From NCBI GenBank assembly GCA_016928495.1, contig JAFGKQ010000017.1, positions 1-6,607 of the forward strand: a DNA stretch of 6,607 nt, written 5' to 3'. Within the stretch, counting starts at the first letter, position 1, and each line of letters begins with the position of its first letter. This DNA is from Candidatus Fermentibacterales bacterium (GTDB lineage Bacteria; Fermentibacterota; Fermentibacteria; Fermentibacterales; JAFGKQ01). The notes under the pieces were generated by a model. The model saw only the letters and a program-made list of their open reading frames with translations. It was not told the DNA's origin and did not search any database. The position numbers and the translations under genes are program-made. Positions 838 through 6,428 of the stretch are shown piece after piece.

Positions 838-1605
838 TCAGTCGGCAGATATGGAGTGACTGTGTCCGTTCTCCGGGGAGTGGTGAGCCAGAGAGTGCGG
901 CTTCTCCAGGCCGTGCGAGGTCATGAGCCGCTCGTCGGACATGAGCTCCCGCGATGAGCCGTCAGCAACGATCCTGCCCTGGTCCACGATGACCACTCTC
1001 GGGCAGACCTCGAGAACCAGCTCCAGGTCATGGGATGCGACCAGCAGGGTCTCGCCCGATTCACTGAGGAATCCGATGAGGCTCCTTCTGGAGCGCGAGT
1101 CCAGGCTTGCATCCGGTTCGTCGTAGAGGATGATCTCCGGGCTCATGGCGGACACCGCAGCCATGGTCACCAGCCTCTTTTCCCCCCCCGACAGGTGATG
1201 GGGTGGTCTGGACGCCAGGTGAGCTACGCCGAAACGCTGCATCGAGTCCCTTACCAAGGCCCCGATCCGGTCGGGGTGGAGGCCCGTGTTGGCAGGGCCG
1301 AAGCCGATGTCCTCCTCCACGCTTGGGCAGAAGAGCTGATCGTCCGGGTCCTGGAAGACCATCCCTATGGCCGGGTTGAACCTGCCTGGCACTATCGGGG
1401 CCCCTCCGATGGAGATGTTGCCGTGATCGGGGCGAAGAACCCCTGCCGCGAGGAGGAACAGGGTGGTCTTGCCCGAGCCGTTGGGGCCTATCACGCCGAC
1501 CTTCTCGCCTCGGGCGATGCTTAGATCGATGGAGTCTATCGCTCCGGGCTTCTCGGGGTAGGAGAAGACCAGCCCCCGAATGTCCAGAGCACTGGTGCCC
1601 GTCAT
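838..1605 (-). CDS. cbiO: ECF-type nickel/cobalt transporter ATPase, CbiO/NikO family
   Basis: 255 residues. This cytoplasmic ABC ATPase energises the NikM/CbiM-CbiQ permease on the two genes just upstream. Motifs: Walker A GPNGSGKTT (40-48), Q-loop Q85 in MVFQDPDDQLF (the PDDQ-F form typical of ECF ATPases), signature LSGGEKR (138-144), Walker B EIILYDEP (157-164, catalytic E163, with Tyr before the Asp), D-loop SLD (167-169) and H-loop H192. Length is normal for a single-domain CbiO; one ATPase gene suggests a homodimer. The ATG start overlaps the CbiQ stop as ATGA (1602-1605), and AGGTGGAG precedes it by about 4 bases. The frame stays open far upstream, but that stretch lies within the CbiQ gene and has no family features. 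The C-terminus (231-255) carries six histidines, including H241, H242, H248 and H250. Co versus Ni cannot be told from the ATPase. Confidence 0.96.
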   Translation of the reverse strand: MTGTSALDIRGLVFSYPEKPGAIDSIDLSIARGEKVGVIGPNGSGKTTLFLLAAGVLRPDHGNISIGGAPIVPGRFNPAIGMVFQDPDDQLFCPSVEEDIGFGPANTGLHPDRIGALVRDSMQRFGVAHLASRPPHHLSGGEKRLVTMAAVSAMSPEIILYDEPDASLDSRSRRSLIGFLSESGETLLVASHDLELVLEVCPRVVIVDQGRIVADGSSRELMSDERLMTSHGLEKPHSLAHHSPENGHSHSISAD

Positions 1606-2327
1606 CCCGCTCCACCTCTCAGGGCCAGGTCGGCCGCGACCAGGCCCGCGGACAGCAGGACGATGACCGCCAGGATCAGGACGTCCCTGAAGCCGCAGCC
1701 GCTGCCGCGAAGCGGCGGCATGCCACTCGAGGAATAGCCCCTGAGCTTCATCGCCCTGTGAACCCTGGTCGCCCTCTCCTCGCTCCTCACGAGAAGCGTG
1801 CCGATGAGCCCGGCCTCCACACGTACGGCTCTCAGCGGGTTGGCCGCGCTCTCGTAACCCCTCAGCCTCCTCGCGGTCCTCATGCTCCTGAAGTCCTCCC
1901 CCAGCACGCTGACGTACCTCGCGGCGAGCACTCCCATGTCGACCAGCAGAGAGGGTAGCCGGAAGCGTCGGAGCGTCCGCGCCAGCTCGAGGAAGCCAGC
2001 CGTTGCCGAAAGGACCGTCGCGCATACGACCAGAGAGACTATCTTGCAGAGAAGGAGCGAGCCGCGCGCCGCACCGATGGCCGCTCCGTCCCGCGAGAAC
2101 AGAGCCAGGAACAGGAACAGCATGAGGCCGATGAGAAGAGGGCCTCTGAGGCGGTCCCGGAGGCTCCGCAGGGGAAGCCGGGATGCTGCGCCCAGCATCG
2201 CCGAGACGAAGACCAGTACCGGGCCCATCACCGGAGATCGCGTCAGCCCCATGCAAAGCAGGAGGAGCGCGAAGCCAGGCAGCTCGAGGTCCGTCGACCA
2301 GCGATGCAGCAGGGTCCCCCCGGTCAA
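1602..2327 (-). CDS. cbiQ: ECF transporter transmembrane (T) component, CbiQ/NikQ family
   Basis: 241 residues. Integral inner-membrane subunit that couples ATP hydrolysis by CbiO to movement of the substrate-binding component. Hydrophobic segments lie at about 16-28, 33-47, 62-78, 90-108, 125-140 and 214-234. The two cytoplasmic coupling motifs that dock into the ATPases are clear: A152-R-R-L-R-G157 and A192-M-K-L-R-G197, each followed by Tyr. The start is taken as TTG at 2327, which overlaps the preceding stop as TTGA (2324-2327); the next in-frame ATG (residue 26) would remove most of the first membrane segment. The ribosome site before TTG is weak (GAGCA), so translation is probably coupled to the gene before it. 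The end overlaps CbiO by 4 bases. Family assignment is firm; the exact start is likely but not certain. Confidence 0.93.
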   Translation of the reverse strand: MTGGTLLHRWSTDLELPGFALLLLCMGLTRSPVMGPVLVFVSAMLGAASRLPLRSLRDRLRGPLLIGLMLFLFLALFSRDGAAIGAARGSLLLCKIVSLVVCATVLSATAGFLELARTLRRFRLPSLLVDMGVLAARYVSVLGEDFRSMRTARRLRGYESAANPLRAVRVEAGLIGTLLVRSEERATRVHRAMKLRGYSSSGMPPLRGSGCGFRDVLILAVIVLLSAGLVAADLALRGGAG

Positions 2328-2959
2328 TGTGCTGCTCGCAGGATTCCCGGCCTCACCTTCAGCAGGAACGCGACAACGCCGGCGGTCAACGCTCCCTCTA
2401 CTAGAGCGACCGGGATATGGGCCAGCATCATCGCACCGACCGCCACTCGCTCCGCAGAGGCATCGAGGTAGCCCGGGATGGTTGCGATGAGCGTGACGGA
2501 CACGAGCCCTGCCGACAGCAGCACTCCGACGGCCCCGGCCAGGAACGCTCTGAGCCTCGAGGGCATTCCGGCTCCCGTCCTGGCCGCCCCGAAGACCAGC
2601 GAGGCCGCTATTGCCCCGAGACCCATGGCGGTCGCGTTGAAGCCAAGTGTCGTGAGCCCGCCGTGCGAGAACATGACCGCCTGCATCGCGAGGCCGACGA
2701 GTATGGCGGGGAAGGCATAGCTCCCCAGCAGAACCCCGAGCAGGCCGTTCAGAACCAGGTGAACGCTCGACGGCGGAACGGGCACGTGGACCCAGGAAGC
2801 GACGAAGAAGGCTGCGGCGAGGATGGAGGCCCTTGGAATGCCCTCCTCGGGGTTCTTCAGCCTGGCTATCCGCCTGAGCGATGCCCAGGTCAGAGCGCCG
2901 GCTGCCGCGTAGCCGCCGGCGCAGACCTCCATAGGCAGCACGCCGTCAGGAACGTGCAT
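2324..2959 (-). CDS. cbiM: ECF transporter metal-binding (S) component, NikM/CbiM family
   Basis: 211 residues. Inner-membrane component that captures Ni(II) or Co(II) from the periplasm. The N-terminus MHVPDGVLP is the family hallmark: in structurally studied NikM the amino terminus, His2 and His67 coordinate the metal. Counting from the ATG at 2959, the histidine of the conserved SVHLVLNGLLG segment falls at exactly residue 67. That start also has AGGAAG 7 bases upstream, whereas an in-frame ATG six codons earlier (2977) has no ribosome site and would bury the essential Met-His. Later family features are QAVMFSHGGLTTLGFN (93-108) and HIPVALVEGALT (181-192). About six hydrophobic segments are seen. 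The SVHLVLNG form looks closer to NikM-type than to the SCSHPTG form of B12-linked CbiM, so nickel is slightly favoured. It overlaps the upstream gene by 14 bases. I use the cbiM symbol for the family; nikM may be more accurate. Confidence 0.94.
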   Translation of the reverse strand: MHVPDGVLPMEVCAGGYAAAGALTWASLRRIARLKNPEEGIPRASILAAAFFVASWVHVPVPPSSVHLVLNGLLGVLLGSYAFPAILVGLAMQAVMFSHGGLTTLGFNATAMGLGAIAASLVFGAARTGAGMPSRLRAFLAGAVGVLLSAGLVSVTLIATIPGYLDASAERVAVGAMMLAHIPVALVEGALTAGVVAFLLKVRPGILRAAH

Positions 2960-3455
2960 CCGTCTGCTTCCTGACATGCGCCCGCCACGAGAAGAAGAAG
3001 AACGTGCCGACGAACCCCCATCCGACGCAGACCGCCATCACGATCATCTGCAGGGTTCCGGGACCGCCGCCCCCGCGAGCCTCCGGAGCCGGGTCGACCA
3101 GGTCGACGTGCACGATGTCGCCATGACCGGCCTGGCGGACCTGAACGTCCCAGGTTCCGGAGGCTTCGCGGTCGTCGGGCTCGAAGCAGAATCGCCCGGT
3201 GTCATCGGTAGCTCCATGAAGCCATGGCTCGGACGGGTCGGCCGGCGAGTAGACGATCACCTGGGCTCCCGCCATGGGCGTTCCATCGTCGTATAGCGCC
3301 TCGATACGAACGACCGGCCCGTCAGCCTCCCAGAGGATCCTGGCGCCATGGGCCTGGGCACCGCCCCGAAGCAGGAGAGCCGCCAGAGCACAGCAGAGAA
3401 GGGCCGGCGCCGGCCCCCGTAGACGGGAGCCGCTCAGTCGGAGCGATGCACGCAC
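2946..3455 (-). CDS. nikL: NikL-like accessory protein of the Ni/Co ECF transporter
   Basis: 169 residues. Signal peptide: basic start (R2, R6, R11, R13), hydrophobic core about 16-29, cleavage motif AQA (33-35), giving a mature protein that begins H36-G37. Residues 40-120 form a beta-rich transthyretin/carboxypeptidase-regulatory-like domain (VVRIEALYDDGTPMAGAQVI, GATDDTGRFCFEPD, GTWDVQVRQAGHGD). A Gly-rich linker (127-134) leads to one membrane helix (about 135-157) and a short basic cytoplasmic tail. This signal-domain-helix plan, next to cbiM, matches NikL of NikKLMQO systems, a proposed extracytoplasmic accessory subunit. The start is GTG at 3455, with GGGAGAGGG upstream, overlapping the previous gene by 22 bases; no other initiator fits before the signal peptide. 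A NikK (DUF4198) partner is not present here. The molecular role of NikL is not well defined. Confidence 0.85.
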   Translation of the reverse strand: MRASLRLSGSRLRGPAPALLCCALAALLLRGGAQAHGARILWEADGPVVRIEALYDDGTPMAGAQVIVYSPADPSEPWLHGATDDTGRFCFEPDDREASGTWDVQVRQAGHGDIVHVDLVDPAPEARGGGGPGTLQMIVMAVCVGWGFVGTFFFFSWRAHVRKQTDARS

Positions 3456-4282
3456 AGGCAGTGGCCCTCTCCCACGTGCCCCAGCGTTGGCAGGATCTCG
3501 AGCAGCTTCCCATAGGCCTCGGGGTCCATGCTCCCTGCAAGGTCGGCCATCGTCACGTCAAGCAGCCCATCGGCGGCGAGATCAACGAAGGGCTGGAAGC
3601 CGATGGCTCCGACATTCAGCTCGTCATCAGGGGAGCTGCCCGCATCCCCGAAGAGGTGGTCGAAGTGGAAGGTCATCTCCACATCGGCTTCTCCGCCCTC
3701 GGCGAGGATGCCCTTGCGCTGGTCGCCGACGTACTCGCCCCCGTAGAAGCTGCAGTCCAGGTCCAGCCCGATGCGGAAGGATATGGTGTCGGCGTTCTTC
3801 ACCGCGCTGCCCGACAGCAGTATCGCGCTCGGAGCCATCTCGCCCTCGACTCGAGGCGCTACTCCCCATGCCAGGGCGTTGTAGTGTCCCGCCGGAACAT
3901 CGGCCATCACGCCTATCCGGATGGGCTCCGCCGTCTCGTCCCCCTCCGCAAGGTCGATCTCGATCGGACCGCTGAGGAAGACCGTCTCGACGGGCTCCGG
4001 GAGGGCGCCCTCGTGTGGGTCGTAGGGAGGGTCCGTCTGCATTGCGCTGACTCCGGAGACGTTCACCCAGGCATGATCGAACGAGATCTGCCAGTCGTCC
4101 TTCGAGGTGAAGCCCTGCCTTATGAAGTCCTCACCGTTGGCCGTGAAACAGAGAGTGCCGGCAGGGACGACCATCTGCTCCGTGCTCTCTATCGGCGCCT
4201 CCCCCTCCTGTTCTCCCCCGCAGCCCGCAGCGGCGAGAAGCAGGACGAGGGCCGACAGCGCGGCAATAGCTCTTCCAGTCAT
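3434..4282 (-). CDS. Lipoprotein with His/Cys-rich C-terminus, probable periplasmic metal-handling protein
   Basis: 282 residues. A lipoprotein signal peptide (R4, hydrophobic 9-19) ends in LAAAGC, so C21 would be lipidated; a flexible E/G-rich linker follows to about 38. The mature domain is beta-rich (for example WQISFDHAWVNVSGVSA at 64-80 and IRIGVMADVPAGHYNALAWG at 121-140) and acidic. Possible metal ligands: H206, D208 and H209 in TFHFDHLFGD, and the cluster H269, H274, C275, C277, H279 at the end (GHVGEGHCLCVH). C45 and C177 could form a disulfide. I do not recognise a named family with confidence; the SFDHAWVNV stretch recalls DUF4382-like domains. The ATG at 4282 has GGGAG 7 bases upstream. 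The gene lies between the barrel gene (17-base gap) and nikL (22-base overlap), so metal capture or delivery for the ECF importer is inferred from position and residues. Confidence 0.8.
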   Translation of the reverse strand: MTGRAIAALSALVLLLAAAGCGGEQEGEAPIESTEQMVVPAGTLCFTANGEDFIRQGFTSKDDWQISFDHAWVNVSGVSAMQTDPPYDPHEGALPEPVETVFLSGPIEIDLAEGDETAEPIRIGVMADVPAGHYNALAWGVAPRVEGEMAPSAILLSGSAVKNADTISFRIGLDLDCSFYGGEYVGDQRKGILAEGGEADVEMTFHFDHLFGDAGSSPDDELNVGAIGFQPFVDLAADGLLDVTMADLAGSMDPEAYGKLLEILPTLGHVGEGHCLCVHRSD

Positions 4283-4299
4283 GTTACAGCTCCCGGTTC

Positions 4300-5007
4300 T
4301 CAGAGACACGCGATCAGGCCGGCGGTCAGGCCGGCACTGGCATCGGTCTCGTCGGTTGACGGATAGTAGTCGGCCTGGGTCTCGAGCTCCAGGCCCTCTC
4401 TCAGAGCGAACGTGACGCCGAGCGAGATGGCCTCCAGCTCCGTGGAGGACTCGTCGGAGTCCGGGTAGTGCCCGATCGATGCCGCAGCCAGGACCGTCGC
4501 GCTCGCGCTCAGATCGTAGTGGACCATGGGCGCGATCGATAGGGAGGTGTCTATCGACTGGCTGTCGTCGGGAGCGTTCTCGAAGCCGGTCTCCAGGTTG
4601 AGGTGGGCGCCGGCCCGTTCCCCGAGCGAAAGGCTCAGCTCGGTCCCGGCCATCACCAGGCCCGAGGTCGAGACCGACCCGTAGAGGTCCCAGGCGACCC
4701 TGTCGGACTCGAGAAGCACCCCGAACAGGCCGATCGAGATCGTCTGCGAGGCGTTGCCGAGCCAGGTGTCGGACTCCCCGGTGATGGACAGACTCCCGGA
4801 GATCCTGGGTCTGATGCCTACCCCCATCAGCAGCTCTGTCGACAGAGACGACTCCTCCCGGTCCAGTCCGAGACCGGAGTAGCTCGCGAACACCTCCCAT
4901 TCGCTGAAGCCGAGCTCGAAGGGATCGGTAGGTCCCAGAGCTGCCGCAGCAGGTGCCATGAGGAGCATGGCGATCAGGGTTCCGGCGTCTCGTGTCCTGG
5001 TGTTCAG
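4300..5007 (-). CDS. Exported beta-barrel-like protein, candidate outer-membrane metal channel
   Basis: 235 residues if started at CTG 5007. No ATG, GTG or TTG lies at a sensible place: the first ATG (residue 14) would leave a truncated signal peptide without positive charges. From CTG the N-terminus is a normal signal peptide: R4 and R6, hydrophobic 9-24, cleavage near APAAA-LG. A GGGAGG ribosome site lies about 5 bases before CTG, and CTG overlaps the Fur-gene stop as CTGA (5004-5007). A GTG 19 codons upstream (5064) is a poorer alternative. The mature part alternates polar and hydrophobic residues in many short strands split by acidic, Ser/Gly-rich turns (ISGSLSITGESD, AWDLYGSVSTSGLVMAG, LEAISLGVTFALREGLELET), as in small outer-membrane barrels. 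The C-terminus IACL lacks the usual final Phe. No TonB plug is seen. No named family is recognised; transport is inferred from the operon. Confidence 0.72.
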   Translation of the reverse strand: MNTRTRDAGTLIAMLLMAPAAAALGPTDPFELGFSEWEVFASYSGLGLDREESSLSTELLMGVGIRPRISGSLSITGESDTWLGNASQTISIGLFGVLLESDRVAWDLYGSVSTSGLVMAGTELSLSLGERAGAHLNLETGFENAPDDSQSIDTSLSIAPMVHYDLSASATVLAAASIGHYPDSDESSTELEAISLGVTFALREGLELETQADYYPSTDETDASAGLTAGLIACL

Positions 5008-5465
5008 TTGTTCCCTCCCCCGTTGTGCGCCCCCTTCTGCCCCGCCTCCGAACAGGTCCTGCACAGGCCCTGTATGGCGAAGTGACTTGGGCCGCTGTCG
5101 AAGCCGTATCTTTCCCTCAGATCCTCCAGGAGCGGCCCGATGGGCGCGTCCCGGATTTCCATGACCGATCCGCAGTGCCTGCACACCAGATGCAGGTGAG
5201 GGCCGTGCTTCCCGGTCGCGTAGACCACCCTTCCGGCGCCGAGGTTGGCCCTGGTGGCAAGGCCCTCCTCCACCAGCATCTCCAGCGTTCTGTACACGGT
5301 GGCACGGTTGACGGACTTGGCCCGCTTGTGCGCCTCCCGCAGGACATCGTCGGCAGACATGTGGCGACCGCTGTGCGCGATGACCTCGATGACGATCTCC
5401 CTCTGGGGAGTGATCCTGTAACCTCGCTCCCTGAGCCTGGCCATGAAGGTGTGGCAATGGGGCAT
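5004..5465 (-). CDS. Fur-family metal-responsive transcriptional repressor
   Basis: 153 residues. Cytoplasmic DNA-binding metalloregulator. The winged-helix part has RITPQREIVIEVI (17-29), HMSADDVL (35-42) and the recognition helix VNRATVYRTLEML (52-64). The dimerisation part has H87, H90 and H92 (HGPHLHLVCRHCG) as regulatory-metal ligands, plus a structural zinc site from C95-x-x-C98 and C135-x-x-C138. H35 and H128 may add ligands. The N-terminus MPHCHTF has an extra His-Cys-His. Length is normal. The ATG at 5465 has AGGGAGGA 6 bases upstream; the frame continues upstream only through non-coding DNA and antisense to the next gene. It is the first gene of the metal operon, overlaps the barrel gene by 4 bases, and a Fur-type inverted repeat covers its promoter, so it probably represses its own operon. 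Fur, Zur, Nur and Mur subtypes cannot be separated from the sequence; nickel/cobalt sensing is suggested by context. Confidence 0.94.
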   Translation of the reverse strand: MPHCHTFMARLRERGYRITPQREIVIEVIAHSGRHMSADDVLREAHKRAKSVNRATVYRTLEMLVEEGLATRANLGAGRVVYATGKHGPHLHLVCRHCGSVMEIRDAPIGPLLEDLRERYGFDSGPSHFAIQGLCRTCSEAGQKGAHNGGGNN

Positions 5466-5487: not shown

Positions 5488-5515
5488 TGCAAATAATCGC
5501 AGGTGCGAATCATAT
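5488..5515. promoter_or_regulatory. Candidate Fur-family operator in front of the metal operon
   Basis: The core TCGCAGGTGCGA (5497-5508) is an inverted repeat with five-base arms. It extends to a 16-base near-palindrome, 5495-5510, with one mismatched outer pair. Together with TGCAAAT at 5488-5494 there are three TGC(A/G)A(A/T)-like half-sites; TGCGAAT (5504-5510) matches the half-site common in Fur boxes of high-GC bacteria. The site overlaps the predicted -10 and start of transcription of the operon. The exact Fur-subfamily specificity cannot be read from it. Confidence 0.6.
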
Positions 5516-5536
5516 CACGAAGATGCGTCACGGCAA
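5509..5536 (-). promoter_or_regulatory. Promoter of the fur-barrel-lipoprotein-nikL-cbiMQO operon
   Basis: On the minus strand, TTGCCG (5536 to 5531) and TATGAT (5514 to 5509, five of six matches to TATAAT) are separated by 16 bases. Transcription would start near 5502, giving a leader of about 37 bases with the Fur-gene ribosome site. The leader is too short for a cobalamin riboswitch. The Fur-type inverted repeat overlaps the -10, as expected for repression. Confidence 0.6.
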
Positions 5537-5618: not shown

Positions 5619-6428
5619 ATGCAGGGGAAACGGAGCTACCCCGGGTTCGTCGCCGAGTTCTACGACAGGGTTCCATCCTACCAGGATCGCGGGGACGTCG
5701 ACTTCTACCTCGAGGAGGCGGTCGCCACGGGAGGCGATGTCCTCGAGCTGGGTTGCGGCACGGGCAGGGTGGCCGCGGCGACGGCACTCGCGGGACGCAG
5801 AGTCACGGGACTGGACATCTCGCCCAGCATGCTGAAGGTGTTCCGGGACAGGATCGGGTCTATGCCCGAGGACGCCGCATCCAGGATCGATCTGGTGGAG
5901 GGTGACATGCGCCGGTTCGAGCTGGGCAGGAAGTTCGGGCTGATCACCACCCCCTTCAGGTCCTTCCAGCACCTGCTGACCACCGAAGACCAGATGTCCT
6001 GTCTTGCTTGCGTGCGTGCGCATCTCGAGGAAAGGGGGAGGTTCGTGCTCGACCTCTTCAACCCGTCCGTTCCCAGGCTCGCCGATGAGAGGACGAGACG
6101 GGAGTACGGGGAGGAGCCCGAGTTCGAGATGCCCGATGGCAGGAGAGTGCAGCGCGCGTTCCGCAACGACTCGGTGGATTTCGAGCACCAGGTCCTGAAT
6201 GCCGAGATCATCTACTACGTCACTCATCCCGACGGCAGGCGGGAAAGGCTGGTCGACGCCTTCCCCCTTAGGTACCTGTTCCGGTTCGAGGCGGAGCACC
6301 TGCTGGCAAGATGTGGCTTCGAAGTCCTGAGCCTCTACTCCGACTACGACCGGTCTCCTCCCGGCTCCCGGTACCCCGGGGAGCTGGTTTTCGTGTGTTG
6401 CCCCGATTCGGCCCCGGACCGCTCCTGA
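5619..6428 (+). CDS. Class I SAM-dependent methyltransferase (Methyltransf_25-like)
   Basis: 269 residues. A complete class I methyltransferase core: motif I VLELGCGTGRVA (41-52), the strand-2 acid D66 in GLDISPSML, D96 in VEGDMRRF before strand 4, then LITTPFRSFQHLL (108-120), the TPF/FQ-L motif seen in this group, and FVLDLFNPS (142-150) for strand 5. The C-terminal third (about 165-260) is a beta-rich region (VQRAFRNDSVDFEHQVLNAEIIYYV, residues spread over 177-201, and PLRYLFRFEAEHLLARCGFEVL) typical of stand-alone small-molecule methylases. The substrate is unknown. The ATG at 5619 has only a weak ribosome site (AAAGG about 11 bases upstream), so the start is moderately sure. It is divergent from the metal operon, and no metal link is seen. 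It may be co-transcribed with the glycosyltransferase that begins 73 bases after its stop. Confidence 0.9.
   Translation: MQGKRSYPGFVAEFYDRVPSYQDRGDVDFYLEEAVATGGDVLELGCGTGRVAAATALAGRRVTGLDISPSMLKVFRDRIGSMPEDAASRIDLVEGDMRRFELGRKFGLITTPFRSFQHLLTTEDQMSCLACVRAHLEERGRFVLDLFNPSVPRLADERTRREYGEEPEFEMPDGRRVQRAFRNDSVDFEHQVLNAEIIYYVTHPDGRRERLVDAFPLRYLFRFEAEHLLARCGFEVLSLYSDYDRSPPGSRYPGELVFVCCPDSAPDRS

Follow-up and report, generated by a model that had tools for sequence, protein, structure and literature searches.

The locus examined here raises the question of whether a single regulator can control a complete metal uptake route, from an outer-membrane barrel, through an extracytoplasmic lipoprotein, to an inner-membrane importer. 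TonB receptors and general porins apart, little is known of how nickel and cobalt get across the outer membrane. The window, i.e. the whole stretch of DNA under analysis, is one entire 6607-bp contig of a metagenome assembly (2.3 Mb in 337 contigs) belonging to an uncultured member of the Fermentibacterota. On the basis of computed gene order, protein families, genomic linkage, predicted folds, conserved residues and an operator, we conclude that seven of its genes quite probably form an operon for the acquisition of nickel (possibly nickel and cobalt) under a Nur-like repressor, combining a barrel, a lipoprotein and an importer.

As originally described, the operon is a single run of seven minus-strand genes extending from 5465 to 838 in the order fur, barrel, lipoprotein, nikL, cbiM, cbiQ and cbiO. 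Its tight packing is likewise as described: 17 bases separate the stop codon of the barrel gene from the start of the lipoprotein gene, and all other junctions overlap. Scans of the window proteins assign Fur, CbiM, CbiQ and CbiO to Pfam or NCBIfam families, and return no such family for the barrel or the lipoprotein. On either side of the operon lies a methyltransferase-like gene (5619-6428 on the plus strand and 2-604 on the minus strand), the left one being cut off by the end of the contig.

The core of the operon is an ECF nickel/cobalt importer of the NikKLMQO type, a system that is already known. It comprises the substrate-binding S component CbiM/NikM (2324-2977; PF01891, 5e-50; NF004906, 251.9 bits for a cut-off of 205), the T component CbiQ/NikQ (1602-2327; PF02361, 7e-26) and the ATPase CbiO/NikO (838-1605; PF00005, 3e-24; TIGR04521, 5e-54), which has a His-containing tail. 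The matches to PF01891, PF02361, PF00005 and NF004906 all lie above cut-off, and CbiM contains the metal-binding MHVPDG motif. Since the NCBIfam models align from this motif, the true start of CbiM is probably codon 7, at about 2959, and the annotation would be six codons too long. The NikL-like subunit (2946-3455) scores 41.3 bits (E 1.5e-10) with the curated NikL model NF058648, below its cut-off of 100, and is made up of a signal peptide, a small extracytoplasmic domain and a C-terminal transmembrane helix. In Synechocystis, nikKLMQO (sll0381-sll0385) is arranged as K-L-M-Q-O, and its deletion revealed specificity for nickel (PMC5904137). The present operon shares with it the ECF core, and its K-L-M-Q-O order is that of cyanobacterial lipoprotein operons, whereas no adjacent Fur or barrel has been described there. 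The ure2 NikKMLQO system of Brucella also has the ECF core, NikL and a periplasmic K protein, but its gene order differs (PMC2868824). The original statement that this gene set lacks a standard description consequently holds for the barrel and for the Fur protein with its operator, and fails for the NikKLMQO core (PMC5904137, PMC2667541).

The lipoprotein (3434-4282, minus strand) had been viewed as part of a dedicated outer-membrane stage. In bacterial and archaeal genomes, homologues turned up at 80 loci, distributed over Firmicutes, Chloroflexota, Cyanobacteria, Spirochaetes, Desulfobacterota, Actinobacteria and other groups. Profile searches of their neighbourhoods locate NikL directly downstream of the lipoprotein in 77 of the 80 loci and CbiM in 71, two of the exceptions being loci whose contig stops less than 0.3 kb from the lipoprotein. 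This recurrence beside nikL-cbiMQO agrees with the original assignment of the protein to metal uptake; the phyla involved point to a different place for it in the envelope. Firmicutes and Chloroflexota are generally regarded as single-membraned; the lipoprotein accompanies NikLMQO there too, and it is therefore no device for outer-membrane passage, but part of the importer in the inner membrane, where it takes the place of NikK. It is extracytoplasmic and encoded by the first gene of a K-L-M-Q-O cluster, and a lipobox Cys is found in 89% of its homologues. The family is present in half of 148 Cyanobacteriales genomes, with NikL adjacent or near in 37 of the 44 cyanobacterial loci examined and an order of lipoprotein-L-M-Q-O. 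We infer that it may be the cyanobacterial-type NikK, a likeness drawn from gene order; the published primer site for Synechocystis 6803 nik has no copy in 386 cyanobacterial genomes or in the fetched loci. Proteobacterial NikK is a DUF4198 protein; the 25 Pfam families that most often match 87 lipoprotein homologues weakly do not include DUF4198, so that by this mark the lipoprotein family differs from it.

Variations on this arrangement occur in several groups. Five Desulfobacterial loci (L088, L090, L093, L097 and L099) keep the lipoprotein-NikL pair with no CbiMQO nearby, which suggests use with another transporter or with separately encoded MQO components; orphan NikK/NikL pairs of this kind have been reported (PMC2667541). 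An Anaerolineae locus (L049, 7170-10133) encodes a 988-residue open reading frame with four tandem lipoprotein domains, each bearing the FHxDH and GHxGEGH motifs, and in genome G088 a 785-residue Asp-rich reading frame (L120, 3921-6275) lies between lipoprotein and NikL. A DUF3842 gene recurs at five Firmicutes loci (L022, L051, L071, L076 and L086), some 60 bp or less from the operon.

The lipoprotein had also been labelled His/Cys-rich, an overstatement given 8 His and 5 Cys among its 262 mature residues. Its His, Asp and Glu residues, on the other hand, hardly vary. Across an alignment of 87 sequences, W64, E202, T204, F205, H206, D208, H209, F211, G212, N223 and others are invariant, and H269, G271, E272 and H274 nearly so, yielding the signature FHxDH...GHxGEGH. 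AlphaFold2 models the protein with high confidence (pLDDT 93), and the best match of this model among solved folds is the methanobactin-associated copper protein MbnP (PDB 7l6g; Z 10.9 over 186 residues, 11% identity, rmsd 3.5), the next match having a Z of 6.6. Searches of the lipoprotein profile against the sequences of solved structures give matches at chance level only. Some members weakly match DUF4382 and MbnP, and the window lipoprotein has no Pfam match at E<=10; with PF20243 weakly matched by 3 of the 87 members (best E 0.15), the family cannot be assigned to MbnP by sequence. The MbnP-like predicted fold and the near-invariant motifs, in a protein outside Pfam and NCBIfam families and linked to NikL, indicate that it is most likely a metal-binding extracytoplasmic subunit, either periplasmic or at the surface, with a candidate metal site read from conservation alone.

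The original claim of self-regulation finds support in a conserved palindrome at the promoter before fur, with a second copy before the barrel gene in relatives. The window contains a single operator, TGCAAATAATCGCA (5488-5501), the TGCRA-N4-TYGCA core of an extended motif, TTATTGCRA-N4-TYGCAATAA. It lies 7 bp downstream of the -10 element of a promoter-like sequence, TTGCCG-N16-TATGAT with a TG preceding the -10 (5509-5536, minus strand; one found versus 0.1 in shuffles), a placement that suits repression of the whole transcript. In the Fermentibacterota we find 18 sites in 10.2 kb of regions 5' of fur, barrel and lipoprotein genes and none in the remaining 120 kb of these loci, and in the Chloroflexota 14 sites in 10.3 kb versus 3 in 259 kb; in the other phyla among the compared loci the operator was not found. 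All 18 Fermentibacterota core sites have a spacer of 4, and no other spacer is enriched. Four loci (L034, L038, L040 and L014) have two copies, one before fur and the other immediately before the barrel gene. The 14-bp core by itself was rejected as a genome-wide regulon predictor, since its two occurrences in the 2.3-Mb genome equal the control.

Between fur and the lipoprotein gene lies the barrel gene (4300-5007, minus strand, stop codon 4300-4302), which starts either at a CTG at 5007, inside the fur stop codon and downstream of a good ribosome site (GGGAGG), or at an ATG at 4968. Modelled with AlphaFold2 on an alignment of seven homologues, the protein forms a barrel of 12 strands at moderate confidence (pLDDT 76, pTM 0.70), in line with the original reading. 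It thus combines a predicted signal peptide with a closed, even-stranded barrel, as expected of an outer-membrane protein, again at moderate confidence, and it lacks the C-terminal aromatic residue of the beta-signal, the homologous proteins ending in V or L. A profile detects eight copies in 42 genomes of the order, every one of them at a nik locus; seven sit between fur and the lipoprotein gene, and the eighth adjoins fur with the contig ending on its other side. Homologues of barrel and lipoprotein are therefore not scattered away from metal transporters, nor do the models lack a barrel or a candidate metal site, and on both counts the original prediction stands. Since roughly one half of the order's nik operons have no barrel, the protein is not essential to the system.

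The same evidence bears on the possibility that the barrel has a general or unrelated function in the outer membrane, for instance as a porin for acidic solutes or sugars, and shares the operon by chance. Foldseek and VIA searches match the model to the oligosaccharide channels KdgM and NanC, as well as to a COG4313 channel and the copper barrel PcoB, among others; no His or other metal-ligand clusters are present, and the many operons without a barrel are equally in keeping with a chance association. Against this, the barrel occurs at no other locus in the 42 related genomes and always beside fur, and in relatives it has an operator copy of its own. Furthermore, although it shares the 12-strand fold of KdgM, NanC and PcoB (Z 15-18), it has no sequence family match and is strongly acidic: mature barrels have few basic residues and a net charge of -27 to -33, which fits cations and not acidic sugars. 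We thus deem a chance association rather unlikely, and regard the protein as a predicted lineage-specific outer-membrane barrel found only in the nik locus.

At three fetched loci a TonB-dependent receptor stands in place of, or in addition to, the barrel, its gene lying directly upstream of the nik operon (L040, 94-2739; L046, 4677-7310; L050, 5255-7831), and at a fourth only a fragment of such a gene remains (L034, 2458-2739). None of the Fermentibacterota loci carrying the receptor has an operator copy before its gene. The same operon has thus acquired outer-membrane proteins of two kinds, which favours an outer-membrane step without marking out one solution to it. The notion that the barrel makes up for an absence of TonB energy was rejected, ExbD being encoded in 41 of the 42 genomes, that of the window included.

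Genomic context favours nickel as the substrate. NikR genes adjoin the operon at four loci, in Firmicutes, Coriobacteriia, Fibrobacterota and Spirochaetes (NF003381, 4.5e-59 for the one tested), NiFe-hydrogenase small-subunit genes are found near it at three (L022, L051 and L071), and in genome G001 putative large- and small-subunit hydrogenase genes directly follow it. No riboswitch was detected near the operon when the window and 24 related loci were scanned with Rfam. It is these NikR and NiFe-hydrogenase neighbours, together with the lack of a B12 riboswitch, that tip the assignment. The genome of the window encodes NiFe-hydrogenase homologues as well; nearly all the genomes do, so the enzyme is useless for discriminating between those with and without the operon. 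Import of cobalt for B12 would agree with the S component scoring best with models named CbiM, cobalt transporter, and with the switch to cobalt of NikK-type systems in a few proteobacteria (PMC2667541), but it is made distinctly improbable by the neighbouring genes and riboswitch scans just described, by Nur being the nearest solved relative of the regulator, and by the nickel specificity of the cyanobacterial system of the same gene order (PMC5904137).

The regulator itself (5465-5004, minus strand, stop codon 5004-5006) is a Fur-family protein (Pfam FUR, 2.6e-26) and presumably a repressor. Its best solved relative is Streptomyces Nur (PDB 3eyy, E 2.5e-33; next best, 2.8e-19), so that similarity places it with Nur rather than with Fur, Zur or PerR. 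Residues H70 and H72, which we take to be the nickel-site pair of Nur, and H86, presumably its M-site, are not kept; in the alignment with Nur their places are taken by R72, N74 and G88 here. Since the pair is not conserved, nickel sensing by the regulator is plausible at most; the Nur nickel site itself may be a crystal artefact (PMC7055735). The operator has the TTGCAA half-site in common with that of Streptomyces coelicolor Nur, but its invariant spacer of 4 in the Fermentibacterota departs from the Nur box, tTGCaa-N5-ttGCAA (PMC3919588). A role for the protein in sensing zinc (as Zur) or iron (as Fur), with some other metal being imported by the operon, is distinctly unlikely: its family, the unconserved histidine pair and a second Fur gene in the genome, which would permit a division of functions, are compatible with such a role, but the match to Nur is far better than to any solved Fur or Zur, the half-site is Nur-like, and CbiM/NikM transporters take nickel or cobalt.

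Returning to nickel uptake under a Nur-like repressor, we infer metal identity, repression, pore function and hand-over in the following scheme. When metal is replete, the metal-bound regulator would occupy the operator at the promoter and switch off the seven-gene transcript, fur included; metal limitation would allow the operon to be expressed. The acidic barrel may then pass the cation, free or weakly chelated, across the outer membrane. The lipoprotein, with its anchor either in the outer face of the inner membrane or in the inner leaflet of the outer one, would capture it at its His/Asp/Glu site and, together with NikL, hand it to CbiM/NikM with its N-terminal Met-His, while CbiQ and CbiO would power ATP-dependent import towards enzymes such as NiFe hydrogenase.

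An ordinary ECF core is thus joined, under one operator, by an unnamed lipoprotein subunit of wide occurrence and by a barrel specific to the lineage. More broadly, and tentatively, we suggest that the outer membrane of the Fermentibacterota might contain a dedicated, TonB-independent nickel channel, the acidic 12-strand barrel. A Nur-like protein would repress it together with the ECF importer through an operator not described before, and it would feed a metal-binding lipoprotein family of MbnP fold whose members serve NikLMQO importers in many phyla. Since the barrel is linked exclusively to one importer and shares operators with it, its role is open to direct test, and the operator motif allows prediction of nickel regulons in Fermentibacterota and Chloroflexota. 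Neither Pfam nor NCBIfam has an entry for the widespread lipoprotein family, in which a candidate metal site is near-invariant; if the family is the K subunit, this would provide the obscure K of NikKLMQO systems with a predicted fold and ligands.
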